In this document: positions 2,421 through 22,014 of the stretch, piece by piece
How the letters are laid out: every line of letters starts with the position of its first letter
Position numbering within the stretch: position 1 is the stretch's first letter
Source: a virus
Direction: 5' to 3' (one strand)
Virus record (IMG/VR): IMGVR_UViG_3300031951_001337
Span: 1 to 22,014 of that record
Length of the DNA stretch: 22,014 nt
Program-made: the position numbers and the translations under genes
The notes under the pieces: generated by a model
What the model was told of the DNA's origin: nothing
Databases searched by the model: none
The model's input: only the letters and a program-made list of their open reading frames with translations

Positions 2421-4672
2421 TGGAACAGGCCAGTCAGGAACTAGAGCAGTACCTACGCACGGTCGGTGCGTATGACAGCGAGTTCGCCAAGTGGAATGCG
2501 CGGGTCAAGAAGGTACTGAAGCGATACCGCGATGACACCCGTGGGCAGTCGCTGACCGAAGGCGCGAAATTCAACATCCTGTGGTCGAATGTCCAGACGC
2601 TCATCCCTGCCGTTTATGCACGACTGCCGAAAGCCGATGTGCGGCGCAGGTTCGGTGACAGCGATCCGGTGGGCCGTGTTGCCGCCTCGCTCGTAGAACG
2701 CGCCCTCGACTTTGAGATAGAGCATTACCCCGACTTCCGCAGCACGATGGGCCTTTCCGTTGAGGATAGGTTCTTGGGCGGTCGCGGCACGGCGTGGGTG
2801 CGGTATGAGCCTCATGTGGCCCCTGTCGGCATTGAGGACGATGGCGTTGCCATTACCTCTGACATCGAACAGGGCGAGGGTGCGCCGCCTGACCTAGAGC
2901 GCATTGACTACGAGTGCGCCACGACTGACTATGTGCATTGGAAGGACTTTGGACACTCCCCCGGGCGCACATGGGAGGAAGTCACCTGTGTATGGCGATG
3001 GGTCTATATGACCCATGATGCCGTTGTGGAGCGGTTTGGCGAGGATGTAGCGCGGCAGATACCCCTCGACAGCGGCCCCGAGCCGTTGAACGCTTACAAC
3101 GACAAGAAGCGCATCTACAACCGAGCGAAAATCTGCGAGTTGTGGGACAAGGAACGCAACAAGGTCGTGTGGTTCAGCAAGGGGATGCCGTCCATCATCG
3201 ACGAGCGCGATGACCCGCTCGGCCTTGAGGGGTTCTTCCCCTGCCCGAAGCCGCTGTATGCGACCACGACTAGCGACACCCTCGTCCCCGTCCCGGACTT
3301 CGTGCTGTATCAGGATCAGGCGCAGGAACTCGACATCCTGTCCGACCGCATTGACGGACTCGTTAAGGCTCTGCGTGTTCGCGGCGTGTATGACGCCTCG
3401 CAGCCTGCCCTACAGCGACTCTTGACCGAGGGCGACAACAACGCCTTGATTCCGGTCGACAAGTGGATGGCCTTTAGCGAGAAGGGCGGGTTGAAGGGGT
3501 CGATTGACCTGCTGCCGCTCGACACGCTCGCCGCTGCCCTCCTGCAATGCTACCAAGCACGGCAGGACATCAAGGGGCAGATATACGAAATCACGGGCAT
3601 CGCTGACATCATCCGTGGGCAGACTGCGGCGAGTGAGACAGCGACGGCGCAGCAGATCAAGGGCCAGTACGCCGGGTTGCGCTTGAGGTCGATGCAGGAG
3701 CAGGTTGCCCTGTTCGCGTCGGAACTCATCAAGTTGAAGGCACAGGTCATGTGCCTGAAGTTCCAGCCCGAAACCATCCTCGCCTACGCTGCGGCAGACC
3801 AGATGTCGCCTGCCGACCAGCAGTACATCCCGCAGGCCATCGAACTCATCCGCAACAAGCCGCTACGCAACTTCCGCGTGGACATCGCTGCGGATAGCCT
3901 CGTCCAGTTGGACGAAGCGCAGATGAAGCAGGATCGGATGCAGTTCCTACAGGCATTCGGCGGCTTCATGAACCAGACGCTTCCTGTAGCGCAGGCGGTT
4001 CCGCAGTTGGCCCCTGCCATCGTGGAACTGATGAAATTCGGCATCCAAGCGTTTAAGGAGAGCCGCAGCGTGGAAGGTGTGCTGACGCAGACGATTGAGC
4101 AGTTGCAGGAGAGCGGTGCGCCCAACCCGCAGGATGCCATGCAGCAGCAGGCCGAGGCAGCGGCGCAGGCTGAACAGGCGAAGGTTCAGGCGCAGATGCA
4201 GGCCGAGCAGACCAAGATGCAGATGGAGCAGGCCAAGACGCAGGCCCAGATGCAGTTGGAACAGGCCAAGATGCAGCAGGAAATGGCGTTGGAGCAGCAG
4301 CGTCAGCAGTTCCAGCAGCAGTTGGAAGCCCAGAAGATGCAGCAGGAGGCCGAACTTGCCAAGTTCAAGGCCAACCTCGACGCCGCTACGAAGGTGATGG
4401 TTGCGCGTATCTCTGCCAACCCCGGCTTGGACATCCCCATGTTTGAAGCGCAGCAGCAGGTCAACGAGAAAGTCGTACAAGACTTGGGCGCGGGTGTGAT
4501 GGCGCAGATGGACAGGCTTGCTGCGCTCTACGCGCAGATGGCGAATGACCAGCGCGGCAACATGGCGCAGATCACGGCGGCTCTTGCGGCCCTGTCTGCC
4601 CCAAAGCGCATCATCCGTGGGACAGACGGTCGAGCGGTAGGCGTTGAGCCTGTGCGCGAACAACTGAATTGA
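2420..4672 (+). CDS. Portal protein (large, P22-like size)
   Basis: The portal forms the dodecameric ring at the DNA-entry vertex that docks TerL and later the tail. I place the start at ATG 2420 (TAATG overlap) rather than at an in-frame GTG at 2360 that lies inside the previous gene. The 750 residues compare with about 725 in P22. Recognisable portal features include the N-terminal helical part (about 1-60), the central 'VPVPDFVLYQDQAQELDILS' and the 'GIADIIRGQTAASETATAQQ' region, which is typical of this portal group. Residues about 575-655 are an almost pure Gln/Ala/Met/Lys/Glu helix with heptad-like units (MQAEQTK, MQMEQAK), likely forming a C-terminal helical barrel inside the head as in P22. 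A short linker leads to the next gene. Confidence 0.92.
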   Translation: MEQASQELEQYLRTVGAYDSEFAKWNARVKKVLKRYRDDTRGQSLTEGAKFNILWSNVQTLIPAVYARLPKADVRRRFGDSDPVGRVAASLVERALDFEIEHYPDFRSTMGLSVEDRFLGGRGTAWVRYEPHVAPVGIEDDGVAITSDIEQGEGAPPDLERIDYECATTDYVHWKDFGHSPGRTWEEVTCVWRWVYMTHDAVVERFGEDVARQIPLDSGPEPLNAYNDKKRIYNRAKICELWDKERNKVVWFSKGMPSIIDERDDPLGLEGFFPCPKPLYATTTSDTLVPVPDFVLYQDQAQELDILSDRIDGLVKALRVRGVYDASQPALQRLLTEGDNNALIPVDKWMAFSEKGGLKGSIDLLPLDTLAAALLQCYQARQDIKGQIYEITGIADIIRGQTAASETATAQQIKGQYAGLRLRSMQEQVALFASELIKLKAQVMCLKFQPETILAYAAADQMSPADQQYIPQAIELIRNKPLRNFRVDIAADSLVQLDEAQMKQDRMQFLQAFGGFMNQTLPVAQAVPQLAPAIVELMKFGIQAFKESRSVEGVLTQTIEQLQESGAPNPQDAMQQQAEAAAQAEQAKVQAQMQAEQTKMQMEQAKTQAQMQLEQAKMQQEMALEQQRQQFQQQLEAQKMQQEAELAKFKANLDAATKVMVARISANPGLDIPMFEAQQQVNEKVVQDLGAGVMAQMDRLAALYAQMANDQRGNMAQITAALAALSAPKRIIRGTDGRAVGVEPVREQLN

Positions 4673-9264: not shown

Positions 9265-9753
9265 ATGCCTGTTTCTACTTCGGGAATCATTGGCGTTGCT
9301 CTGGGCGATGTCAGCCCTACGGCAACTTTTCAGGTCGGCACGGTGGTCAATCTGGATGATGGCGGTCAGGCCATGTTTGTTCAGGCGGCTTCTGACATTT
9401 CGCAGTTCGCTGCGGTGTCCGTCCGTTCGGACGAAACGGCTGTCCCGCTCACCACGACCAACGCTGCCAACAGCAAGCGTGTCGCTTTCGCGCAGGCTTC
9501 GATTGCCTCTGCCCAGTACGGGTGGGTGCAGTTGGGTGGCGTGGTCAAGGTCAACCTGCTGACTGGTTGCGCTCCGAATGTCCCCCTGTTCACCACGGCG
9601 ACTGCCGGGTGTCTGGATGACGCTACGGTGTCGGGCAACGGTGTGGGCCTTGTGGTCGGCGTGACCAACGCGGGTAGCACCGCGTCGGGTACGACGGCTC
9701 TGACCTGCATCGCGGCCTATCCGCACATCAGCGGCGGCGCAGGCGCGGTGTAA
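9265..9753 (+). CDS. Probable capsid decoration protein
   Basis: The gene follows the capsid gene directly, with GGGAG at 9254-9258 before ATG 9265. The 162-residue product is rich in Ala, Val, Thr and Gly with almost no charge, which suggests an all-beta surface protein. Segments such as 'RVAFAQASIASAQYGWVQLG' and 'NGVGLVVGVTNAGST' are of the kind seen in small proteins after the capsid gene in many phages. These are generally considered head decoration or stabilisation proteins. There is no enzymatic motif. The TAATG overlap couples it to the DUF115-like gene. Confidence 0.75.
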   Translation: MPVSTSGIIGVALGDVSPTATFQVGTVVNLDDGGQAMFVQAASDISQFAAVSVRSDETAVPLTTTNAANSKRVAFAQASIASAQYGWVQLGGVVKVNLLTGCAPNVPLFTTATAGCLDDATVSGNGVGLVVGVTNAGSTASGTTALTCIAAYPHISGGAGAV

Positions 9754-10529
9754 TGCACCCGGTGGAGATCACGGTTCAGGCGGCGGGTACACCGGAAGAA
9801 CTGGTGGGCAATATCCGTTCCGCTCTGGGCCGTGGCCTCCCCGAATTGCAGACCGTTCCTTTCACGCACGATGGGACTTTCGTTTGCGTAGCCTCGGGCT
9901 GGTCGATGCCCGACTTCGTGGACGAAATCCGCGCTCACAAAGCCTGTGGGCGTCCCATCGTGGCTGTGAAAGCCGCGCACGACTTCTTGATGGAGCGCGG
10001 CATCGTCCCCGACCTGTGGGTCAATCTTGACCCACGGGATCGGCGGGACGGTATCCAGAAGGCGAATGACCACACGGTGTATCTGGTCGCCTCGCGTTGC
10101 CCCCCGGTCATCTTCGACCACCTTCAGGGGCGCAATGTGGTGCTGTGGCATTCGTGGTCGGCGGGGCCGGAACATGACTCCCTGCCTCCCGGCAAGATTG
10201 CGATTGGTGGCGGCACGACCTCGGGTCTGCGGGCCATCAACATCGGCTACACCCTCGGGTTCCGCAAGTTCGTGTTGTACGGCTACGATTCGTGCAACCG
10301 TGCGGATGGGGTGAAGCGTTTCACGGGTGCGATGACAGGCCCGACCATCGACATCCATGTTGGACACACGGGCAAGAAGTTCATCTGTAACATGGCGATG
10401 GCTCAACAGGCCACGGAGTTCCAGAAACTGTTCGCTGTGATGGCTGACCTGCAACTTGACATCAAGGGGCCGGGACTGCTGGCGGCGATCATGGAAGCGC
10501 GTAAACACTTGGCGGCAGACGCCGCGTAG
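9753..10529 (+). CDS. DUF115 / MptE-Maf-like protein (putative transferase)
   Basis: The 258 residues match the DUF115 pattern. Residues 66-95 read 'GRPIVAVKAAHDFLMERG' followed by 'IVPDLWVNLDPR'; 'PD.....DP' is the signature. Residues 151-181 read 'IGGGTTSGLRAINIGY' then 'TLGFRKFVLYGYDSC', matching the family's 'GGGSV...A...A..LGF..I.L.G.D'. The usual N-terminal 'GPSL' is replaced by 'SGWSM' (48-52). Known members are archaeal 6-hydroxymethylpterin pyrophosphokinase (MptE) and Maf factors that transfer nonulosonic acid to flagellin. In a capsid operon, glycan transfer to a virion protein is an attractive inference, not a demonstrated function. There is no signal peptide or membrane segment, so it acts in the cytoplasm. 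It lies in a TAATG overlap with the decoration gene. Confidence 0.8.
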   Translation: MHPVEITVQAAGTPEELVGNIRSALGRGLPELQTVPFTHDGTFVCVASGWSMPDFVDEIRAHKACGRPIVAVKAAHDFLMERGIVPDLWVNLDPRDRRDGIQKANDHTVYLVASRCPPVIFDHLQGRNVVLWHSWSAGPEHDSLPPGKIAIGGGTTSGLRAINIGYTLGFRKFVLYGYDSCNRADGVKRFTGAMTGPTIDIHVGHTGKKFICNMAMAQQATEFQKLFAVMADLQLDIKGPGLLAAIMEARKHLAADAA

Positions 10530-10538
10530 GAGATTGAC

Positions 10539-10895
10539 ATGGCTTTTCCCTCACAGATTCTCGGTTCGGGCAATGCCGCCGCTTCGTCCATCGCCATCAC
10601 GGGCGAGGTCACGGCGTCGGTGACGGCTGCGGGTACGACCGCTGCTGATGCCACGGTGGTTTCGGCCCCCAATGTGCGTGTGGCGACCGCTGCGGCGTCC
10701 ACGGGCATCCGTGTGCCGCCTGCGGAGACGGGTGCGCTCATGTTCATCCGCAACGACGGCGCGAACACCGTGACGGTGTACCCGGCGACGGGTGGAACCA
10801 TCAACGGTTCGGCCTCGACCACCATCGCGGCGGCGAAGGCGGCTCTGCTGCTCGGCACTAGCCCGACCACTTGGGTGTCTCTGGCGGGCGCATGA
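10539..10895 (+). CDS. Small beta-rich virion protein, copy 1 of a tandem pair
   Basis: The 118-residue protein is rich in Ala, Thr, Val and Gly, and begins at ATG 10539 behind AGGAG (10528-10532). It aligns along its whole length with the next gene product. Shared blocks are 'LGSG' near the start, 'VxAAGT.A..AT' around 29-40, 'PPAETGALMFIRNDGA' (about 60-75), 'TVYPATGGTIN' (about 78-88) and a final 'W.SL.G'. The 'ETGAL.FI.N.GA' to 'TVYP..G..IN' segment is common in small phage virion proteins. I infer a decoration or minor head role from composition and location. The stop overlaps the next start (ATGA). Confidence 0.78.
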   Translation: MAFPSQILGSGNAAASSIAITGEVTASVTAAGTTAADATVVSAPNVRVATAAASTGIRVPPAETGALMFIRNDGANTVTVYPATGGTINGSASTTIAAAKAALLLGTSPTTWVSLAGA

Positions 10896-11254
10896 CGCTG
10901 CCTAGCCGGGTTCTCGGCAGCGGCATATCGGGCCTGTCCACGGTCGCCATCTGCGGCGATGGGCAGGACGATGTGGTTGCTGCCGGGACTTCGGCGGGTA
11001 ACGCAACGCAGTTGGTTGCGATTATGACCTCGGTGGACACCACGCCAAACGGGTCAGGCGTGAAGTTGCCCAAAGCAGAAACGGGTGCGTTGGTGTTCAT
11101 ATCGAACAGCGGCGCACATTCGTTGACGGTGTATCCCCAGACAGGGGACACCATCAACAACACGACATCGGCGGTGATTGCACAAAATCACTCGTCGTTG
11201 TATTTCGGGATCGCAAACAGCGGGTGGTACTCGCTGAACGGTCAACGCTCATAA
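10892..11254 (+). CDS. Small beta-rich virion protein, copy 2 of a tandem pair
   Basis: The start is ATG 10892 in the ATGA overlap; an in-frame GTG at 10871 lies inside the previous gene and is less likely. The 120 residues share with copy 1 the blocks 'LGSG', 'VAAGTSAGNAT', 'LPKAETGALVFISNSGAHS' and 'LTVYPQTGDTIN', plus the closing 'W.SLNG'. Between blocks the two differ strongly, so the duplication is old. A pair of this kind could occupy two distinct positions on the capsid surface, or one could have specialised. No enzymatic motif is visible. Confidence 0.78.
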   Translation: MTLPSRVLGSGISGLSTVAICGDGQDDVVAAGTSAGNATQLVAIMTSVDTTPNGSGVKLPKAETGALVFISNSGAHSLTVYPQTGDTINNTTSAVIAQNHSSLYFGIANSGWYSLNGQRS

Positions 11255-12718: not shown

Positions 12719-14295
12719 TGGCTAGCCCTCGTCGCCGTCGCCTTGTTCAGCGCACGACCAACAATGTGGCGTCCCTGCCTGCCCCTGTGGGCGGGTGGAA
12801 CGCCCGTGATGCGTTGGCGAACATGGCTCCGACCGATGCGGTGACGCTCGACAACCTGTTCCCGGGCGTGTCCAGCGTGTCGTTGCGCGGCGGGTATGTG
12901 AACCACGCAACGGGGATGTCGGGGCAGGTCGAAACGCTGATGACCTTCAACGGCGGGGCGACGGATCGGATGTTCGCCATCGCGTCGGGCAGCGTCTACG
13001 ATGTGACGAGCGCGGGCGCGGTCGGTTCGCCTGTCGTGACGGGCCTGACCAACTCCCGGTGGGAGTCTGCCAACATCACGACTTCGGGCGGTTCGTTCAT
13101 GTACATGGCAAACGGGGTGGACTCCCCCCGCCTGTACAACGGATCGACGTGGACAACCATCACGGGCGCGTCCTCGCCTGCCATTACCGGGGTCACGACC
13201 TCAACGCTGCACAGCCCGACGCTGTTCAAGAATCGGATGTGGTTCTTGCAGCAGGACACGCTCAAGGCGTGGTATCTGCCGACTTCCAGCGTCGGCGGGG
13301 CGGCGAATGTCCTTGACCTGTCTGCTGTGGCGCGGCTCGGCGGCAGTCTGGTCGCTATGGCGACATGGACGATTGACGCCGGGTATGGCGTGGATGACAA
13401 CCTTGTGTTCGTCACGGATCAGGGCGAAATCATCGTCTACCGTGGTACAGACCCGTCGAGCGCGGCGACTTGGGCGTTGATTGGCATCTGGGTGGTAGGT
13501 GCGCCTGTTGCTGACCATCGTGGGCTGACGAAGTACGGTGGCGACCTGCTCATCCTGACGCTGGACGGGCTTATGCCGCTCGCCTCGGCCCTTCAGTCCT
13601 CGCGCCTTGACCCGCAGGTAGCCCTGTCGGACAAGATTCAGGGCGCGTTTGCGGCGGCTACGCGCACCTACAAGGGCAATTTCGGGTGGGCGGTGCTGTA
13701 CAACCCCCTGAACAATGCCCTTATCGTCAATGTCCCGGTCGGGGTGGGGTCGCAGCAGCAGTTCGTGATGAACAACATCACGAAGGCGTGGTGTCGGTTC
13801 ACGGGCTGGCCTGCGAACTCATGGACTTTGCTCGACTCGACCCCCTATTTCGGCGGGGACGGGGTGGTGGCGAAGGCGTGGACAACCGAAAGCGGGGCAA
13901 ACGGCTATGCCGACAACGGGGCGGCGATTGCCACCCGGGCGTTGCAGGCGTTCAACTACTTTGAGACACGCGGGGTGGTGAAACAGTTCACCCGTGGGCG
14001 TCCGACCATCTACAGCAACGGTACGCCTGCCATCAACATCGGCATCAATGTGGACTTTCAGACCGCCGACCTTGTGGGGCCGCTGTCGTTTTCGGCCACC
14101 TCCTACGGGCTGTGGGATGTGGGGCTGTGGGATCAGGCCATCTGGGGGTCGGACTTGGTGGTATCCAACAACCTTGTAGGGTTGCAGGGCATTGGGTATT
14201 GTGGGGCGGTGAACTTCAACAGCAGCAGCAAAAACCTGTCGTTGGAGTGGGCGTCCACCGACATCGTGTACCAACTCGGATGGGCGGGCGTATAA
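12718..14295 (+). CDS. Tail nozzle/hub protein, propeller-like (P22 gp10 type)
   Basis: The 525-residue protein has a basic start (SPRRRRLVQ) and the motif 'PAPVGGWNARDALANM' at about residues 21-36, then 'LDNLFPGVSSVSLRGGY'. These openings are usual for the beta-rich tail proteins of podovirus-like phages that correspond in place and size to P22 gp10 (472 residues). Repeating short strands with Asp/Asn/Gly turns ('MYMANGVDSPRLYNGSTW', 'DNLVFVTDQGEIIVYRGTD') fit a beta-propeller. It would extend the portal-adaptor tube and carry the fibres. One of the six ACGT sites lies here (13147-13150). The 3' end overlaps the acetyltransferase start by 16 bases. Confidence 0.8.
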   Translation: MASPRRRRLVQRTTNNVASLPAPVGGWNARDALANMAPTDAVTLDNLFPGVSSVSLRGGYVNHATGMSGQVETLMTFNGGATDRMFAIASGSVYDVTSAGAVGSPVVTGLTNSRWESANITTSGGSFMYMANGVDSPRLYNGSTWTTITGASSPAITGVTTSTLHSPTLFKNRMWFLQQDTLKAWYLPTSSVGGAANVLDLSAVARLGGSLVAMATWTIDAGYGVDDNLVFVTDQGEIIVYRGTDPSSAATWALIGIWVVGAPVADHRGLTKYGGDLLILTLDGLMPLASALQSSRLDPQVALSDKIQGAFAAATRTYKGNFGWAVLYNPLNNALIVNVPVGVGSQQQFVMNNITKAWCRFTGWPANSWTLLDSTPYFGGDGVVAKAWTTESGANGYADNGAAIATRALQAFNYFETRGVVKQFTRGRPTIYSNGTPAINIGINVDFQTADLVGPLSFSATSYGLWDVGLWDQAIWGSDLVVSNNLVGLQGIGYCGAVNFNSSSKNLSLEWASTDIVYQLGWAGV

Positions 14296-14714
14296 TCACA
14301 GGCGCACCCGTTGGTGCGTGGGTTGCAGGAGTTTTAGGACGAGGCTACTTCGCGGAAAGGTCGCAAGCGATTGGGCTGGAGCGTGATGGCATCCAAGCGG
14401 GTGTCATCTACGAGGACTGGTCAGGGCGCAGTATCGTGTGCCACATCGCAATCGCAGGGCGGCTCACATCATGCTTTGTGGCAGCAATTTTTGACTATCC
14501 GTTTCGGGTTTGCGGCGTTGAGAAAATCATCGCCCCTATCTTGAGTGGAAATGCCAAAGCGTTGCGGCTAGTCAAGAACATGGGCTTTGTCGAGGAAGCG
14601 CGGTTGCGGTTCAGCGATGAAGATTTGTGCATGATGACGATGAATCGGGATCAATGCCGATTCTTGGAAGCGAAGTATGTCAAAAAAGTCTCCGGCTCCT
14701 CCTCCGGCTCCTGA
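14280..14714 (+). CDS. GNAT-type N-acetyltransferase
   Basis: The earliest sensible start is ATG 14280, inside the end of the tail gene, giving 144 residues; the frame further upstream is only tail-gene DNA. Diagnostic parts are 'QAGVIYEDWSGRSIVCHIAI' (39-58, the central strands), 'FDYPFRVCGVEKIIAPI' (71-87) and 'SGNAKALRLVKNMGFVEEAR' (89-108), the last being the GNAT C-terminal signature with an Asn and a Gly-Phe. The usual acetyl-CoA loop Q/RxxGxG/A is not clear. Phage GNATs of this type often sit between tail and ejection genes; substrates are unknown. It could modify a virion or host protein. The 3' end overlaps the next gene by 38 bases. Confidence 0.82.
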   Translation: MGGRIITGAPVGAWVAGVLGRGYFAERSQAIGLERDGIQAGVIYEDWSGRSIVCHIAIAGRLTSCFVAAIFDYPFRVCGVEKIIAPILSGNAKALRLVKNMGFVEEARLRFSDEDLCMMTMNRDQCRFLEAKYVKKVSGSSSGS

Positions 14715-17700
14715 CTACGCAGGGGCGGCACAGCAGCAGGGCGTTGCCAACCTTGAGGCGGCGCGTCTTACTGCGCGGCTCTCCAATCCCAACATCCGCA
14801 CCCCGCTCGGTGGTCAGCGTGTGTCGTGGGGTCGCTCGCAGTTTGACCAGCGAGCGTATGACGCTGCGATGGCTGATTGGAACCGCCGCAACCCGCAGCA
14901 GCCGTCAGGTGTGCAGAATGGCCTGTCGTTCTCGGGCGGTCAGTCAACGAAGCCCAATCGTCAGCCGCCCGGTGGCGAAAGCATGGGGTCTTACGGCAAG
15001 CCGAATGCCGTCCCGCCGACTGCCGACATCGGTGGTGGCGCACAGATGCCCACGGGTGGGCAGGACTTGAAGGTGGGCGGTGCGCCGCTGCGCGAAGGGT
15101 TTGAGCCGATGCGCGGCGGGTTTGAGGACAGGGAATACGCGATGGGTGGCCCTGCCCAACAGAGAGCCGCGCAGATGGGCGGCGATATGTTCCGCGATAC
15201 GATGATGCGCGACACCGGGATGCGCGGCGGTCAGACGGGCAGAGACTTTGCTGAGTTCGACGGCTTTACGGGGCGCGGCCCCGGTGGTCGTGCGGGGCAA
15301 AACTTCGGCGGCTACATGGGCGATGTCATGCCGACCCGCGAAATGTTCACGACCATGACGGACTTGGACACCCCGTTCATTGAGCAGTACCTGACCCCCG
15401 AGGCGCAGGCGACCCTTGAGGCGCAGCAGCGCGTCGAGCGGGCGTTGGCGGGACTCGGTGAAGGCGCGATCAACCGTGTGCAGGACATCTACGGGCAGAA
15501 CTTCACCCCGACCGGGCTTCCGGCGCAGCAGTTCTCGTTTGACCGTGGCGCGTTGCCGACGCTTGGGCCGCTTGAGGGTCGGGCGACGGCTGATGTGTCT
15601 GCGCTCCCGGTCAACTTCGGGCCGACTGCGGGGCAGTTCGGCATGGCGACGGGTGGCCCCGGTGGGTTGAACCTTGCAGGCTTTGATGCCTCCCGCGTTG
15701 GCGGCATCGCTGCGGCTCCGACCGGGGGTCAGTTTGGTGCAGCAACGGGTGGCCCTGCGGCGGGCCAGTTTGGCATGGCTGCGGGTGGCCCCGGTGGGGT
15801 CAACTTTCAGGGCTTGGATGTGTCTGGGGTTTCGCCTGTTCAAGCGGGCGTGGGTCAATTTGGCACAGCGCAGGGTGGGCCTGCTGCGCCGACCGTGCAG
15901 GGATTGAACCTTGCGGGCGTTGGCGGCGTGGGGCCGACCACGGGCGCAGGATTGTACGGATTCGCAGGCGGCGGGCCGGGTGGCGTGTCGTTGGGCGGGT
16001 TGGACACCTCGGGGCTTGGTGCTGCCGCAAGCGGCCCCGGTGGGCAGGCGTTTGGAACGGCGACTGGCGGCGTGGCTGCGCCCCGATTGGCGACCCAGTA
16101 CGATTTGACCGGGGTTGGCAACGTGACCGCCGCGCCGGGGGCGTTTGACCGTGCGGTGTCTGGCCCTGCTGCGCCGACGCTTCAGGGGCGGCTTGACACC
16201 TCCAACCTCGCCGCGATGCCTGTGAATGCGGGCATGACGGCGCAGGAGGCTATCCTGTCGCGGCTTGATCCGTCGTTGCAGCGTCAGCGGTCGCAATTGG
16301 AAACCCAGTTGGCGAATCAGGGTCTAGTCCGTGGGGGCGAGGCTTACGATGTCGCCATGCAGGAGCAGGGGCAGCGCGAAAACGACCTACGGACGCAGGC
16401 TGCGCTACAGGGTCTACAACTCGATATGGCGGCGCGTCAGCAGGGCTTGGGCGAGGCGCAGGCTCTGGGTGGGTTTGCCAACCAAGCGGCTCTGTCGGGC
16501 TTTGGCGCGGGCCAGCAGGCCACCCAAGCGCAGAATGTCGCCGCGCAACAGAACTTCCAGAATGCGTTGGCGCAGCAGCAGGCGGCGAATCAAGCCCAGC
16601 AGCAGGCGTTCACGCAGCGGGCGCAATCTGGGCAGTTCGGCAACGAAGCGCAGATGGCGGCTTTCAATGCAGCGATGGCGAGTCAGGCGGCGGGCAATCA
16701 GGCAATCGGGCAGAACTTTGCCCAATCGCAGGCCGCGCAGCAGTTGGCGAACCAATCGCAGGCGCAGAACTTCCAACAGCGCGTGGCGGCGGGTGAGTTC
16801 GGGCGGGAAGCGCAACTGGCAGCGTTCCAGACCGGGCAAGCGGCGCAGGCGATGCAAAATCAGGCGGTTGGTCAGAACTTCGCGCAGGCTCAAGCGGCAG
16901 AACAGGCTGCGCGGGCGGCGCAGGAGCAGCGGTTCAATCAGGCGGTACAAGCCGCGCAGGTTGGGGCGGGGCTGACTGGACAGCAGTTTTCGATGGGTCA
17001 GCAGGCTACCCAAGCCCAGAACGCCGCGATTGCCCAAAACGCGCAGTTGGCGTTGCAGAGCGGTCAGTTTGCCAACGCGGCGCAGGCGCAGCAGTTCGCG
17101 CAGCGTCTTGCGGCTGGCGAGTTCGGGCGCGAGGCGCAGATGGCGTCCTTCCAGACGGGGCAGGCGGCGCAGGACGCTGTAAACCGAGCAATTGCCCAGA
17201 ACTTCGGGCAGGCGCAGGCGGCGGGGCAGATGGGCAATCAAGCCATCGGGCAGAACTTCCAGCAGGCTTTGGATGCACAGCAGGCGGCGTTGCAAGCGCA
17301 GGGACAAGGGTTCAATCAGCAGATGGCGGGCCAGCAGTTTGGTCGAGAATCAGCCTTGCAGGGCTTCCAATCGCAGCAGGCGGCACAGGAAGCGGCAAAC
17401 CGTGCCATCGCGCAGAACTTTGGACAGGCGTTGCAGGGTCAGGGCGCGTACAACGCGGCGGCGGCGCAGCAGTTCGGGCAGGGCATGGATGTGCAGGCTG
17501 CGCGAAATGCGGCGGTCATGGCGAACCAGCAGACGCAGTTGCAGCAGGCGCAGGCGATGGCGGCATTGCAGGCGCAGGGGTTCAACCAGTCGCAGGCGGC
17601 GGCAGCGTTCCAGAACGCGCAGCGTCAGGCGGCGTTGCAGGAGCAGTTGGCGTTGCGGAATCAGCCGCTAAACGAGATCGCCGCTCTGATGGGTGGGTCG

Positions 17701-17925
17701 CAGATTCAGATGCCGCAATTCCAAGCCTATCAGGGTGCTGAAGTCGCGGCGGCTCCCATCTTCGGGGCTACGCAAGCGGCGGGTAACTTCGCGCAGCAGA
17801 ACTACAGCAACCAAGTTTCTGCGAACAACGCCAAACTTGGTATGTACGGCTCGCTGCTCGGCGCGGCGGGTACTGCCGCTGGCGGCGGGTTCTTTGGCAA
17901 TCCGTTTGGCAAGCCGGGAGGCTGA
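14677..17925 (+). CDS. Giant internal/ejection-type virion protein with two repeat arrays
   Basis: The start is ATG 14677, with a weak purine-rich site (GGAAGCGAAG) before it. The 1,082 residues fall into parts. Residues 1-51 ('KSPAPPPAPDYAGAAQQQG') form an opening common in podovirus internal proteins. Residues about 52-285 are Gly/Met/Gln-rich and probably disordered. A Gly-rich repeat array with about 32-residue spacing covers 288-515. A conserved helical box 'SRLDPSLQRQRSQLETQLAN' runs to 'GEAYDVAM' (about 520-561). An Ala/Gln-rich helix with Phe every 18 residues covers 609-978. The C-terminus 'NQPLNEIAALMGGSQIQMPQ' (from 995) ends in a Gly/Ala-rich tail. The box and C-terminus resemble proteins injected with phage DNA. 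A role in forming a conduit through the envelope is inferred. Confidence 0.85.
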   Translation: MSKKSPAPPPAPDYAGAAQQQGVANLEAARLTARLSNPNIRTPLGGQRVSWGRSQFDQRAYDAAMADWNRRNPQQPSGVQNGLSFSGGQSTKPNRQPPGGESMGSYGKPNAVPPTADIGGGAQMPTGGQDLKVGGAPLREGFEPMRGGFEDREYAMGGPAQQRAAQMGGDMFRDTMMRDTGMRGGQTGRDFAEFDGFTGRGPGGRAGQNFGGYMGDVMPTREMFTTMTDLDTPFIEQYLTPEAQATLEAQQRVERALAGLGEGAINRVQDIYGQNFTPTGLPAQQFSFDRGALPTLGPLEGRATADVSALPVNFGPTAGQFGMATGGPGGLNLAGFDASRVGGIAAAPTGGQFGAATGGPAAGQFGMAAGGPGGVNFQGLDVSGVSPVQAGVGQFGTAQGGPAAPTVQGLNLAGVGGVGPTTGAGLYGFAGGGPGGVSLGGLDTSGLGAAASGPGGQAFGTATGGVAAPRLATQYDLTGVGNVTAAPGAFDRAVSGPAAPTLQGRLDTSNLAAMPVNAGMTAQEAILSRLDPSLQRQRSQLETQLANQGLVRGGEAYDVAMQEQGQRENDLRTQAALQGLQLDMAARQQGLGEAQALGGFANQAALSGFGAGQQATQAQNVAAQQNFQNALAQQQAANQAQQQAFTQRAQSGQFGNEAQMAAFNAAMASQAAGNQAIGQNFAQSQAAQQLANQSQAQNFQQRVAAGEFGREAQLAAFQTGQAAQAMQNQAVGQNFAQAQAAEQAARAAQEQRFNQAVQAAQVGAGLTGQQFSMGQQATQAQNAAIAQNAQLALQSGQFANAAQAQQFAQRLAAGEFGREAQMASFQTGQAAQDAVNRAIAQNFGQAQAAGQMGNQAIGQNFQQALDAQQAALQAQGQGFNQQMAGQQFGRESALQGFQSQQAAQEAANRAIAQNFGQALQGQGAYNAAAAQQFGQGMDVQAARNAAVMANQQTQLQQAQAMAALQAQGFNQSQAAAAFQNAQRQAALQEQLALRNQPLNEIAALMGGSQIQMPQFQAYQGAEVAAAPIFGATQAAGNFAQQNYSNQVSANNAKLGMYGSLLGAAGTAAGGGFFGNPFGKPGG
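15538..16221 (+). repeat. Gly-rich ~32-residue (about 96-bp) tandem repeat array
   Basis: Within the 1,082-residue protein, aromatic anchors fall at residues 288, 321, 353, 395, 427, 459 and 490 (spacings 33, 32, 42, 32, 32, 31). The 42-residue interval holds a 12-residue insert with an extra 'GQFG' (F365). The unit is approximately 'GQFGxAxGGPAAPxLQGLDx' followed by 'SGVGxVxAxPG'. The first and last units share 'FDR' and 'PVN'. Units diverge considerably at DNA level, so this is an ancient protein-level repeat, not a recent slippage product. It is likely an extended or beta-rich flexible stretch. Confidence 0.8.
16501..17583 (+). repeat. 54-bp (18-residue) in-phase array encoding Phe-anchored Ala/Gln helix
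   Basis: The Phe codon at 16501 (residue 609) is followed by Phe codons at exact 54-bp steps up to 17581 (residue 969). Nineteen of the 21 grid positions are Phe; residue 789 is Ala and 951 is Gln. The remaining Phe in this part (600, 654, 708, 798, 816, 888, 978) all lie 9 residues from the grid. A motif 'N(Q/R)A(I/V)(G/A)QNF' repeats at N680, N734, N788, N842, N860 and N914, mostly 54 residues apart, giving a second-order period of three units (at N788 the final Phe is Ala). No indel breaks the phase for 360 residues. The DNA copies are well diverged. Confidence 0.9.
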
Positions 17926-18245
17926 TGATGTACCGATACACCCCCGACCGCCCGCAGCGCATGGCGCAAATGCTTGCAATGCAGGAGCGCAACCAGAGCC
18001 TGAACGCCCCCGCTGGACAGCGCGACGGTATGCCCGCGATGCGTCCGTCCCTCGCCTACGCGGGGGCCACGCCCAACACGGCATCGGGTATGCCGCCGCA
18101 GGCGATGAACTTCAACGGCCCACGGATGACCCGTCAGCCGGGCATCGCCCCGCAGTTGGGTCAGCGTCCCCGGCGCGTGAGTCCGGCAGGCATCAACACG
18201 CCGCAGGGCGGTGCGGATCGCGGAGACTTCGACTATGGCGGGTAA
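17925..18245 (+). CDS. Small Pro/Gln/Met-rich hypothetical protein (106 aa)
   Basis: I do not recognise a family. The sequence is rich in Pro, Gln, Met, Ala and Arg, with low complexity and probably mostly disordered ('MAQMLAMQERNQSLNAPAGQ', 'QLGQRPRRVSPAGIN'). The start could be ATG 17925 (TGATG overlap) or ATG 17928. The latter has better spacing from GGGAGG (17916-17921), so one Met is uncertain. It lies between two ejection-type genes and overlaps the next gene by 11 bases. A small internal virion protein, like the third ejection protein of other podoviruses, is possible but not shown. Confidence 0.65.
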   Translation: MMYRYTPDRPQRMAQMLAMQERNQSLNAPAGQRDGMPAMRPSLAYAGATPNTASGMPPQAMNFNGPRMTRQPGIAPQLGQRPRRVSPAGINTPQGGADRGDFDYGG

Positions 18246-19440
18246 CACGGTCTTTCGCGTTTCGACTGATTACGACCGTCAGGCCGCAGATGCTCGAAAG
18301 CGTCGGCGCATGGCTGACCTACTCGCGCAACAGGTTGTGGAGCCTACGCAGTACGGCCCCGGCCCAACCCCTGCCGCCGCCCCGCTTGTGCAGGGTCTAC
18401 AGGCGTTCCTTGCCGCCCGTGCTGGTCGCAAGGCAGACGAGGCCGAGGAAGGCGTTGCGTCGGCGCAGGCCCGTGCCGGTGAGCAGATTTCTAACTATCT
18501 CTTTGGCGGCGGGCGTATGCCAAAGACCGCTGCTGACCTTACGGAAGTAACCCCGGCTGGGCGGCTTGGCCCGCAGACGGCGGCAGATTTGACCGAAGTA
18601 ACCCCCGAAGGCGCGTACATCAAGCCGTATGAAAAAGATTCGGCAGCGGCTTTGCGTCTTGCGCTGACCCCTGCGGGTGGCGCGGCCATGAAGGGCAATC
18701 CGATGCTTGCGGCGATGTTGGCAAACCAGATGAAGGAGCCGACTGCCGAGCAGTTTGGCACTACGCCTGTTCGCACGAAAGATGGCGCAGTATTGATTGG
18801 CGAGCGGGGGACAGTTCGCCCGTTGGGTGTGGAACTTGCCGACGAACCCGCAAAACCGGAAAGCAGGTCATCGCTCGCCAAGTTGCTTTCTGAACGCGAA
18901 GGGTTGCCGCCAAACAGTCCGTTGCGAGCGGTCTACGATCAAGCAATTGCAAAAGAAACGCGCATTGCCCCCGGCCCGCGCATCAATGTCGATACTGGGT
19001 TGAGCCGCAATCAGCAGTTTTCTAACGAAAACACTTTGCGCGATGAGTTTTTGCAGCAAACGAGTGATTTTAGAACCATCCGCAGCGCGTACAACAAAAT
19101 AATGTCTACCGCTGACAATGGCGCGGGCGATATGTCGCTGTTGTATCAGTATGTGAAATTGCTTGACCCCGGCTCTGTGGTCAGAGAAAGCGAGTTTGCA
19201 ACGGCAGCGGCGTCTGGCTCGTTTGGCGAGCAGATTCAAGGTGCGGTGCAGAAACTTCAATCTGGTGCGCGATTGGCAAGCACTTTGCGAGACTCGTTCA
19301 GAGCAGAAGCAAAAAACATCTATGAACAGTCTCAATCGTCTGCACAGCAAACAGAGCAGCAGTATCGCAATTTGGCAAAGGATTACGGGCTTGATCCTAA
19401 CCGAGTCATTCCCAACACATCGTCGCGGAGCAAGTGGTAA
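18235..19440 (+). CDS. Probable internal/ejection virion protein (401 aa)
   Basis: The start is ATG 18235 with GGAGA at 18222-18226; an in-frame GTG at 18211 is less likely. The N-terminal region is basic and helical ('DYDRQAADARKRRRMADLLA'), followed by 'PLVQGLQAFLAARAGRKADE', a start typical of podovirus internal proteins. The C-terminal part 'SLLYQYVKLLDPGSVVRESE' (about 301-320) with the helices around it is a conserved motif in proteins ejected with phage DNA. Residues 98-107 and 115-124 are an exact ten-residue duplication (TAADLTEVTP). The last third is visibly less G+C-rich than its surroundings. The stop overlaps the next gene (TAATG). Confidence 0.75.
   Translation: MAGNTVFRVSTDYDRQAADARKRRRMADLLAQQVVEPTQYGPGPTPAAAPLVQGLQAFLAARAGRKADEAEEGVASAQARAGEQISNYLFGGGRMPKTAADLTEVTPAGRLGPQTAADLTEVTPEGAYIKPYEKDSAAALRLALTPAGGAAMKGNPMLAAMLANQMKEPTAEQFGTTPVRTKDGAVLIGERGTVRPLGVELADEPAKPESRSSLAKLLSEREGLPPNSPLRAVYDQAIAKETRIAPGPRINVDTGLSRNQQFSNENTLRDEFLQQTSDFRTIRSAYNKIMSTADNGAGDMSLLYQYVKLLDPGSVVRESEFATAAASGSFGEQIQGAVQKLQSGARLASTLRDSFRAEAKNIYEQSQSSAQQTEQQYRNLAKDYGLDPNRVIPNTSSRSKW
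18526..18606 (+). repeat. Internal duplication of a ten-residue segment
   Basis: Residues TAADLTEVTP are encoded at 18526-18555 and again at 18577-18606, 51 bases (17 residues) apart. The protein copies are identical, whereas the DNA copies differ at several third positions (for example gctgctgac against gcggcagat). The repeat is therefore old enough for synonymous drift yet kept at protein level. The unit with spacer is 'TAADLTEVTPAGRLGPQ', followed by a second partial unit. Confidence 0.85.
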
Positions 19441-21203
19441 TGCCCAAGAACATCACCGTTACGCTGCCCGATGGTCGGACGCACACTTACGAGGATGTGC
19501 CTGACAATGTGACGCAGGAGCAAGCGCAAGCCCGTGCCGCGCAGGAGTTTGTATCGCGGCCTGTGCAGCCCGGTAGTCCCACGGCTGCTGCTCTGACGCA
19601 TACCGTATCCACCCCGCAGTCAAACGAGCCTGCGCGTGGGCCGACACCGTTCACTATGGACAGGGATACGGGAGCCATGCGCCCACTTACGGGCATGGAA
19701 AAGTTCCGCTACGGGTTTGGACTCGGTGCGCGAAACATTGGGTTGAACGCAGCGGAAATGGTCGGCCTAACCTCGCCCGAGCGCGTCCGTGAAGCGCAGA
19801 CCGAAGGTGCGCCGATTACGGGGCAGTTCCCCGGTAATGTCGGCGCGTTTACGGGCGAGGTGGCTACGCTTGCCCCGCTTGGCATGGGTGTAGCGGGCGT
19901 GGCTACACGGCTCGGGATGCCCGCCCGTGGCGTATTGGCAGGCGTGACGGAGGGTGCGGCGCAGGGTGCTGCCGCTGCTGGCCCTGATGATCGGCTTGGT
20001 GGCGCAATCACGGGCGGCGTTACGGGTGGCGCGTTGCCTTCGGCGCAGCGCATGGCGCAGTTGCTTGGGCGCGGCATGGAAATGACGCCCAACGCTCGAC
20101 GCTTGACGCGGCGCGGCGTTGAATTGACGCCGGGGCAAATGAACCCTGAAGGTAATTGGGCAATGATGGAGGAAGTTCTACAGGGCTTACCCGTTATTGG
20201 CCCCAAAATCCGCGAGGCTCGCGGGCGCGGATGGACGCAGACGCAGAATGTCATCGCGCAAGAGGCCGCGCCTCCCGGCGTTGTGTTGCAGCCTCGGCAA
20301 GACCCGCAGGATATGTTCCGCGACCTCTTGAAAGCCTATGACACGGCTTACGATGTCGGCAAGGGCTACCCCATGTTGCCTGTCATCCGTCCTGCGACGG
20401 GGCCGGATGTGCCGCTGTCACAGGCGTTGCAGGTTCCGCGTACCGCAAAAGGAACGGATGAGGGGCGCAAGTACGCCGCATCGGTGCTAAACAACGAATT
20501 GTCGAGCATCCGTGGTCTTGGCGCACGACTGTCAAGTGATGACCTGCTTGCGATGCGGTCGCGTATCCGTACAGAAGTTCGTGAACTGCGTAGAAAACCA
20601 AATGCCCCTCTTGGCGCGGATGAAATTCTGACCAACGCGGAACAGAAAATCACCGCTGCGCTAGATTCGCAGTTGCCGCCGAATGTAGTGCAACAGGTTC
20701 GCGCTATTGATGCCAAGTATGGCAATTTTGTGGTGTTAAGGGACGCTCTTGACCGTGCTATAGATCGGCCCGAGGGATTCACTCCGTCGCAGTTTTCGCA
20801 GGCTGTTCGCGCTGGCACAACCTCAAAAACACAGTACGCGGCGGGCGGCGGTCGGATGCGCGATGTATCTCGCGCTGCAACGGATGTGTTTCAGCCGCGT
20901 CAGCCTGCAACGGGGCGGCAGTTGGGTGCGCTGATGGCGTTGGGCGTCCCGGCAAGCGCAGCGGTCGTTGGTGGCCCTGCAACGCAAGCGGTGGGCGCAG
21001 GAATCCTCGGCATGAGTGCGTTTCCGTATCTGTCGGGCGGTGTTGGGCAATCGGCGCGGCGGGTGCTGACGGGGCAAACGCAAGCGCAACAGGCTATCCG
21101 CAACGCAGAACGGGCGGCGCGGCGTAAACTTACCCCGCAAGAACGCGAATCTATCGTGCGCTTCATGCAGACGATGGGCGTTGCGGCGCAGGATCAGGAG
21201 TAA
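19440..21203 (+). CDS. Probable internal/ejection virion protein with membrane-like segments (587 aa)
   Basis: ATG 19440 sits in a TAATG overlap and has GGAG at 19427-19430. Residues 5-29 ('ITVTLPDGRTHTYEDVPDN' then 'VTQEQA') are a small domain shared by many large phage internal proteins. Residues about 144-182 are Gly/Ala/Val-rich and hydrophobic ('LAPLGMGVAGVATRLGM'). About 226-275 hold 'RRGVELTPGQMNPEGNW', a motif common in phage ejection proteins, then helices. Residues about 496-537 ('LGALMALGVPASAAVVGG') are a second glycine-zipper-like hydrophobic stretch. Such segments suit insertion into the host membrane during DNA entry. No lysozyme or transglycosylase catalytic motif is seen. It corresponds in place to the ejection genes of P22-like or T7-like phages. 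Confidence 0.75.
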   Translation: MPKNITVTLPDGRTHTYEDVPDNVTQEQAQARAAQEFVSRPVQPGSPTAAALTHTVSTPQSNEPARGPTPFTMDRDTGAMRPLTGMEKFRYGFGLGARNIGLNAAEMVGLTSPERVREAQTEGAPITGQFPGNVGAFTGEVATLAPLGMGVAGVATRLGMPARGVLAGVTEGAAQGAAAAGPDDRLGGAITGGVTGGALPSAQRMAQLLGRGMEMTPNARRLTRRGVELTPGQMNPEGNWAMMEEVLQGLPVIGPKIREARGRGWTQTQNVIAQEAAPPGVVLQPRQDPQDMFRDLLKAYDTAYDVGKGYPMLPVIRPATGPDVPLSQALQVPRTAKGTDEGRKYAASVLNNELSSIRGLGARLSSDDLLAMRSRIRTEVRELRRKPNAPLGADEILTNAEQKITAALDSQLPPNVVQQVRAIDAKYGNFVVLRDALDRAIDRPEGFTPSQFSQAVRAGTTSKTQYAAGGGRMRDVSRAATDVFQPRQPATGRQLGALMALGVPASAAVVGGPATQAVGAGILGMSAFPYLSGGVGQSARRVLTGQTQAQQAIRNAERAARRKLTPQERESIVRFMQTMGVAAQDQE

Positions 21204-21209
21204 TCACAG

Positions 21210-22014
21210 ATGTCCTTCAACGGTTCCGGCACATTCGTCATCAACTCGTCAGGCCAGCCTGTCGTTGCCAACACCGTCATTTCCTCGACGGTGTTCAACG
21301 CGCTGACGGCTGACCTTGCCACGGGTCTTTCAACCTGTATCACGAAGGACGGTCAGACCACGCCCACGGCGAACATCCCGATGGGGACTTTCAAGTTCAC
21401 CAATCTTGGCGTTGGGTCTGCTGCGACCGACTCTGCCACGCTTGGTCAGGTACAGGCATCCACGACCAAACTGGTGACGGTCACGGGTACTGACGCCATC
21501 ACCGGGACGATGATTCCTGCGCTGACGGCGTATGCCTCTGGGCAGATGTTCTACTTCGTCGCGGGTGGTGCAAACACGGGTGCGGTCACGCTGAACATCG
21601 ACGGTCTGGGTGCGCGGAATGTGACGCGCCACGGATCGGTTGCCCTTGTCGCGGGTGACATCCTCTCCGGTGAAGTCTGCGTGGTGGTGTATGACGGTAC
21701 GCGCTTTCAGTTGCTCAACCCCGGTTCGTACACAAACCTTAATGTGTCGGGTGCGCTTACGCTGAACGGCGGCACCGCCAATGGCGTCCTTTACCTCAAC
21801 GGGTCGAAGGCGGCGACGAGCGGGAGCGACCTGACCTATAACGGCACGAACCTCGGAGTGGGGGGCAGCATTGGCACGACGCCCTCGCTGAACAAAGGCG
21901 TTTATCTTCAGTCCGACAGCAACAACGCCGTCATCGGGTTCTCGCTCAATGTCAACGACGGCGCCAACAACCGTCGCGGGTCGATGTTCCTCGACGATTC
22001 AGCGGGGCTGTGGG
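21210..22014 (+). CDS. Tail fibre/spike protein, N-terminal part (cut by window end)
   Basis: The start is ATG 21210 with AGGAG (21196-21200) nine bases upstream. The visible 268 residues begin 'MSFNGSGTFVINSSGQPVVA' and continue 'NTVISSTVFNALTADLATG', an N-terminal pattern shared by many phage tail-fibre proteins that serves as the virion-attachment end. A repeat-like 'GTFKFTNLGVGSAATDSATL' comes next, followed by a beta domain ('MFYFVAGGANTGAVTLNIDG'). 'NLNVSGALTLNGGTANGVLY' then leads into a region resembling shafts with a C-terminal chaperone or receptor-binding end. The receptor-binding part lies beyond the window. Expected role: host recognition. Confidence 0.85.
   Translation, partial: MSFNGSGTFVINSSGQPVVANTVISSTVFNALTADLATGLSTCITKDGQTTPTANIPMGTFKFTNLGVGSAATDSATLGQVQASTTKLVTVTGTDAITGTMIPALTAYASGQMFYFVAGGANTGAVTLNIDGLGARNVTRHGSVALVAGDILSGEVCVVVYDGTRFQLLNPGSYTNLNVSGALTLNGGTANGVLYLNGSKAATSGSDLTYNGTNLGVGGSIGTTPSLNKGVYLQSDSNNAVIGFSLNVNDGANNRRGSMFLDDSAGLW

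Follow-up and report, generated by a model that had tools for sequence, protein, structure and literature searches.

A virion protein of 1,082 residues, encoded in the window (the whole 22,014-nucleotide stretch analysed here, positions 1 to 22,014 of IMG/VR record IMGVR_UViG_3300031951_001337), carries phenylalanine on an 18-residue grid. Across its homologues this array changes length in 18-residue steps, and the Gly/Pro-rich segment that precedes it grows and shrinks with it in close linear proportion. The best explanation, to which we give about an even chance, is that a helical leg and an extended leg run antiparallel in a rod, and that the protein is a virion component from the IVPB slot that probably serves in DNA ejection. 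The features are listed in Table 1.

Table 1. Coordinates, strand and assignment of the features discussed, in window positions.
Feature	Position	Strand	Remarks
GNAT-like gene (IVPA), upstream	14112..14714	+	phrog_4470, E=1.3e-26; weak Pfam GNAT match
CDS of the 1,082-aa virion protein	14677..17925	+	phrog_6121 family; IVPB position, Mx8/phiGT1-lineage podovirus
N-terminal head, residues 1–238, with PAPPPAPDYAGAAQQQG motif	14677..15390	+	Alignment A3; length untied to array
Gly/Pro-rich leg, residues 239–528, starting at LTPEAQ helix	15391..16260	+	Length locked to array
Helical hairpin, residues 528–590, inferred tip where the chain would turn	16258..16446	+	AlphaFold2; alignment A1
Phe grid, residues 600–978	16474..17610	+	18-residue array, 23 units by anchor count
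Example hinge unit SGQFG, residues 652–656 around Phe654	16630..16644	+	AlphaFold2 helix breaks
C-terminal part, residues 987–1082, with LALRNQPLNEIAALMGGSQ anchor and Gly-rich hydrophobic end	17635..17922	+	Alignment A3
106-aa ORF, downstream	17925..18245	+	Like small ORFs after many relatives' array genes
Putative ejection protein, IVPC position	18211..19440	+	phrog_13634 in common with Mx8 p56
589-aa ORF, IVPD position	19434..21203	+	No family match

Counting positions bears out the preliminary description, which had reported Phe on a strict 18-residue grid with the rest 9 residues away. Phe occupies 19 of the 21 positions 609+18n up to residue 969 (the exceptions are Ala789 and Gln951), and the off-grid Phe at 600, 654, 708, 798, 816, 888 and 978 each lie 9 residues off. 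The stretch from residue 600 to 978 contains 26 Phe, and all of them share one class modulo 9, an outcome with a chance of ~1e-24 for 26 randomly placed residues. The autocorrelation of Phe positions, run as that description had proposed, peaks at lags 18, 36 and 54, at 12–13 times expectation, and is zero at most other lags. A 9-residue pseudo-repeat underlies the 18-residue period. The 9-offset Phe belong to Gly-flanked AG[EQ]FG motifs, a second kind of unit (hinge units) beside the plain ones, with Gly at −2 and +1 in 58% and 51% of cases, respectively, versus 1% and 13%. Besides the example in Table 1, hinge units occur around Phe708, Phe798, Phe816 and Phe888.

The register is old, because TRF did not detect the array as a tandem repeat in the window DNA and the 18-residue units share a mean identity of only 46% at the nucleotide level (35% in amino acids). 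Together with low dN/dS values, these observations led us to reject a recent DNA tandem repeat or an assembly artefact. That the grid might be unique to the window was also rejected, as homologues carry it too.

We assembled homologues from IMG/VR and one Acidobacteria MAG, and measured array length from the preceding ND...L motif to the following PLNEI motif. Array length falls in a single class (13 modulo 18) in 44 of 54 homologue clusters, with arrays of 2–42 units, and a scan of moduli 5 to 39 gave no peaks besides those at 18 and at two of its divisors, 6 and 9. Array lengths in these 44 clusters differ by multiples of 18, the pattern that the preliminary description had suggested looking for; a fixed 54-residue unit was rejected, as the steps are of 18. 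On a tree of the flanks, at least 41 array-length changes compare with 7 phase changes, and the preceding segment of the same proteins, used as a control, takes 61 distinct lengths, with every one of the 18 classes represented. Off-phase exceptions are mostly of 4, 7, 11, 14 or 15 residues, near whole helical turns; a +1 exception, in the array of L067, is a Gly insertion. In pairs of equal length, array dN/dS is mostly ~0.02–0.1, and nearly all Phe are retained even at dS near 1. The array is therefore under purifying selection, and the earlier proposal that selection acts on its phase is supported by the single length class, the excess of length over phase changes and the low dN/dS.

The preliminary description overlooked the behaviour of the Gly-rich segment before the array, which we call the leg. 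Measured from the LTPEAQ helix to the SRL hairpin, leg length G equals 0.586 × array + 42 residues (r = 0.99982, residual SD 2.3 aa, 42 clusters, with L070 set aside and Mx8, Mx9 and Ruegeria 45A6 left out), and the relation spans a 16-fold range. Phylogenetic contrasts between leg and array give r = 0.9994, with 27 of 27 of the same sign. The line also finds the segment in most clades that did not enter the fit: in ten of them (L014, L021, L045, L072, L161, L085, L086, L088, L090 and L091), which include phages with almost no array, it predicts the helix-start anchor within a few residues. A hand count suggests positions ~18–20 aa below the line for Mx8, Mx9 and Ruegeria 45A6. The lone strong outlier, L070, has a leg 32 aa (one Gly repeat) above it; this ORF extends to the contig end, so that it may have undergone a recent deletion or its repeat may have been collapsed. 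The N-terminal head and the C-terminal part show no comparable scaling with the array (for the C-terminal part, a weak rho of 0.35). A literature search confined to open papers found no description of this 18-residue Phe repeat, and we are not aware that a two-array length lock in one virion protein has been reported before.

Could such co-variation arise without selection? Duplicating an 18-residue unit automatically keeps the phase, blocks of modules recur, and coordinated recombination might make both arrays drift together. Such neutral expansion is strongly disfavoured, to the point of being close to negligible: the units have diverged at the DNA level, dN/dS is low in most pairs, the adjoining segment takes indels freely, and two segments built from different units are locked to within the SD given above.

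The match also holds for individual changes in length. Between close pairs, array and leg differ by +54/+32 (L006 to L003), +18/+11 (L003 to the window) and +144/+83 residues (L055 to L020), such that 54 aa of array correspond to ~32 aa of leg and single 18-aa steps to 9–12 aa. Repeats in the leg are ~31 aa long in the window (FGxAxGGP...LDxS), and in L052 the leg consists of tandem 11-mers (YGQAGGVNAGQ), nearly one per array 18-mer. Arrays that are longer by 7 or 11 residues, equivalent to two or three helical turns, have legs longer by ~3–4 or 6–8 residues (array to leg lengths of 67 to 81, 78 to 89 and 89 to 95 in one series, and 85 to 90–93 and 92 to 95 in another). Because off-phase arrays are matched proportionally, the lock concerns linear length and does not count units.

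This proportionality bears on a beta-solenoid or amyloid-like stack, in which the 18-mer would supply two 9-residue strands of one rung and the 10–11-residue leg unit one strand per rung. The 9-residue pseudo-repeat, with its alternating conserved positions 0, 2, 4 and 6, the Asn/Gln ladders, the almost 1:1 ratio of 11-mers to 18-mers in L052 and the moderate dimensions that would result (~11 nm here) all fit such a stack. We nevertheless regard it as quite unlikely: the proportional leg changes of the +7 and +11 arrays are not predicted by a count of rungs, a composition of 26% Ala, 29% Gln and 4.8% Val+Ile+Thr without Pro is ill suited to it, and AlphaFold2 placed no strands in the array.

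The 18-aa steps weigh on an accordion of helical hairpins, in which the chain would fold back at the AG[EQ]FG hinges and each 54-aa module would pair with one 31-aa Gly repeat. Such an arrangement is unlikely, as leg changes of 9–12 aa accompany even single 18-aa steps, and hinge spacing in the window varies from 18 to 90 aa. It would accord with the enrichment of Gly around the 9-offset Phe, with the ratio of 54 aa of array to ~32 aa of leg and with AlphaFold2 breaks near the hinges, mostly ~50 aa apart.

An alpha-helical array paired with the leg in a linear, length-matched manner is strongly indicated. Composition favours the helix: Gln makes up 29% and Ala 25–26% of array residues, Pro, Cys, Trp and His are absent from all 11,723 of them, and mean helix propensity in the window array is 0.36 kcal/mol. 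On a helical wheel the conserved positions form two arcs, Phe0/Leu4/Asn11 and Ala or Phe9/Ala13/Gln2/Gln16. A hydrophobic-moment test for a one-faced amphipathic helix did not find a dominant peak at 100 degrees; the peaks at 80, 120 and 160 degrees mirror the 9-residue pseudo-repeat and are compatible with a two-faced helix, and by themselves they do not rule out beta structure. AlphaFold2 modelled the array in the C-terminal half of the window protein entirely as helix (pLDDT 50–70, pTM 0.28), interrupted near AG[EQ]FG sites, and a 6-unit homologue likewise as helix with low confidence. Over both models array pLDDT is 40–70, the strand content is zero and the Gly-rich leg has no fold, so that prediction favours the helix weakly and does not prove it. 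The ~54-nm straight helix of the preliminary description thus survives in part. Its helical character is favoured by composition and, weakly, by the monomer prediction; a single unbroken straight helix is not supported as stated, in view of the low-confidence breaks near AG[EQ]FG and of relatives that would imply rods of 5–113 nm.

We hypothesize that each 18-residue unit forms exactly five turns of alpha-helix and that the extended Gly/Pro-rich leg runs antiparallel to it, the two joined at the tip by the conserved hairpin, with both chain ends returning to the base. The legs would grow and shrink together because both must cover the same distance: at 1.5 Å per helical residue, 18 residues advance 27 Å, which ~10.5 extended residues would cover at 2.56 Å each. 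Rod length would then be programmable as n × 2.7 nm, giving ~62 nm here if straight and 5–113 nm across relatives. Phe/Leu faces may pack on the Ala faces of neighbouring helices, leaving amide side chains towards solvent or a lumen. The hairpin is predicted with a pLDDT of ~86–96 over most of its length, and the majority of invariant columns in alignment A1 fall within it. When hinge and leg motif patterns were compared, antiparallel register gave 44% agreement and parallel register 32% (maximum 27% in 100 permutations). A second peak lies at a distance of one 54-residue repeat and the values are uncorrected for phylogeny; the test lends weak support to antiparallel pairing. Several observations count against the rod: 2.56 Å per residue is a non-standard conformation, a length of 62–113 nm is more than a Gram-negative envelope or most podovirus capsids measure, the Gly on either side of some Phe hints at kinks, array confidence in AlphaFold2 is low, and the 9-residue pattern also fits two-strand beta layers. 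A fuller version, in which the helical 18-residue and Gly-rich 10–11-residue arrays gauge each other, are selected for equal physical length and form a conduit or stalk tunable to the envelope, is one that we hold only tentatively.

The gene neighbourhood suggests where such a rod might act. The major capsid protein (MCP) and portal of the window are closest to those of Myxococcus phages Mx8 and Mx9, Stenotrophomonas phage BUCT555, Bradyrhizobium phage ppBjS10J-1 and a few others, a lineage placed among ejectosomal podoviruses, in which the GNAT-like gene is named IVPA (Hardies et al. 2023, PMC10386132) and is the positional equivalent of P22 gene 14 and T7 gp13 (PMC10386132). In each annotated relative examined, a positional homologue directly follows the GNAT acetyltransferase gene, and most of these align over the head, hairpin and C-terminal part; the equivalent slot in phiGT1 holds gp17. 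Reading the gene order in this way, the gene after IVPA is IVPB, and the array gene of the window lies between the GNAT gene (IVPA) and the IVPC and IVPD genes. Mx8 p56, two genes further on, also matches phrog_917 (the P22 gp20 family). The protein belongs to phrog_6121 (virion structural protein; E=4.8e-16), which relatives match with E values of 1e-65 to 1e-121, and some relatives also match phrog_4287, a DNA-ejection PHROG. The designation as an ejection-type protein in the preliminary description agrees with this neighbourhood of podovirus ejection proteins (gene order, PMC10386132). From the gene slot, the PHROG links and the composition, we infer that the likeliest role is in the DNA-ejection apparatus, as a component that would span or extend across the cell envelope. 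The antiparallel fold-back, oligomerization and a role as conduit or stalk are likewise our reading of these data.

The window protein has no Pfam match, no relatives in the PDB and, in the Pfam search, no Peptidase_S74 domain, which many relatives do have. PDB matches of the relatives are confined to S74 chaperone regions, and Foldseek searches against viral models returned only relatives and S74-domain proteins. S74 in relatives argues for oligomerization or for an outward trimeric fibre, needle or stalk: a length-quantized rod fixed to the tail, reaching through surface layers and trimerized by S74. This reading, which we consider somewhat unlikely, draws on the C-terminal position of this endosialidase-type chaperone in several relatives, on PHROG tail-fibre matches and PDB matches to tail-fibre chaperone domains, and on a 20-fold length range more in keeping with an appendage than with a trans-periplasmic tube. 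However, conservation is highest at the inferred tip, which sets it apart from a receptor-binding tip; the gene occupies the slot between GNAT and IVPC/IVPD, and a separate tail-fibre-like ORF begins at 21210; one protein with S74 is annotated as internal virion protein D, and the phrog_4287 profile runs through the S74 region of relatives.

Known systems resemble the antiparallel rod in part. Siphophage tape measures have Trp or Phe at fixed spacing, with a period of 11 or 11-11-18 (PMC3271669), and share with the window protein regular aromatics at fixed helical spacing (here Phe at 18 and 9), helical repeats and length change by unit duplication or loss. In contrast to a tape measure, the array does not accompany a long tail: the gene set is that of a short tail, tubeA and tubeB lengths are near constant while the array varies ~20-fold, and no scaling with tubeA, tubeB or IVPC lengths is visible; the array instead matches a segment of its own protein. 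The tube of phiX174 pilot protein H, which delivers DNA, is built of long Gln/Asn-rich alpha-helices (PMC7354561). An H-type amide-lined barrel would be compatible with the composition of the array, a likeness without sequence relation; H has 7- and 11-residue repeats with charged residues, whereas the array units are nearly uncharged and 18 residues long. T7 gp14 and P22 gp7 are similar in position among IVP genes and in Ala/Gln-rich composition, and hhalign profile comparison did not find homology (probability below 1%); T7-like gp14 is reported to be ~200 aa long and nearly constant in size (PMC8954989). Members of phrog_6121 (Mx8 p54, phiGT1 gp17 and the S74 protein of RHph_I3_18) have a homologous N-terminal head, hairpin and C-terminal part and occupy the slot after the GNAT gene, but the isolate members checked are 280–450 aa with no or minimal array, whereas as many as 42 units are present among the window and environmental relatives.

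That two unlike low-complexity segments obey a linear length law means that rod geometry can be read from sequence where structure prediction does not see it, and that tight metric constraints can act on low-complexity phage proteins that are dismissed as disordered. If the rod exists, it would be the tape measure's counterpart within a single molecule, a conduit or stalk adjustable in 2.7-nm steps to the host envelope. Its homologues would then form a clean natural length series in which to test how envelopes of unequal thickness are bridged by podoviruses, and the principle could be used to design rods whose length is programmable.

Several smaller features accompany the array gene and its surroundings. 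The PAPPPAPDYAGAAQQQG motif of the N-terminal head is common to short homologues (alignment A3), and five relatives (L175, L168, L189, L191 and L195) have a hydrophobic, Gly-rich and possibly membrane-active N-terminal extension before a PAPxAPDY motif. The true start of the upstream GNAT-like gene is probably further 3′ than given in Table 1. Small ORFs with a QRMAQMLAMQERN-type motif come after many array genes; in the window, this motif of the 106-aa ORF resembles the start of the next protein (RRRMADLLAQQ). In L187, L190, L160 and L164, an ORF of ~230 aa that begins MLxLAFSGGKDSLACWY and looks like a PP-loop or PAPS-reductase-like enzyme separates the array gene from the next ejection gene. 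Elsewhere in the window, the portal ends in a Gln/Met/Ala-rich tail (4194–4282) whose DNA contains short tandem repeats with units of 21 and 33 nt, and a 258-aa ORF (9753–10529; weak phrog_2111 match, E=6.5e-4) is inserted after the MCP region. Adjacent ORFs of 118 and 127 aa (10539–11254), which lie after the MCP region and before the tail genes, resemble paralogues and share the pattern xxAETGAL.FI.N.GA...TVYP.TG.TIN.
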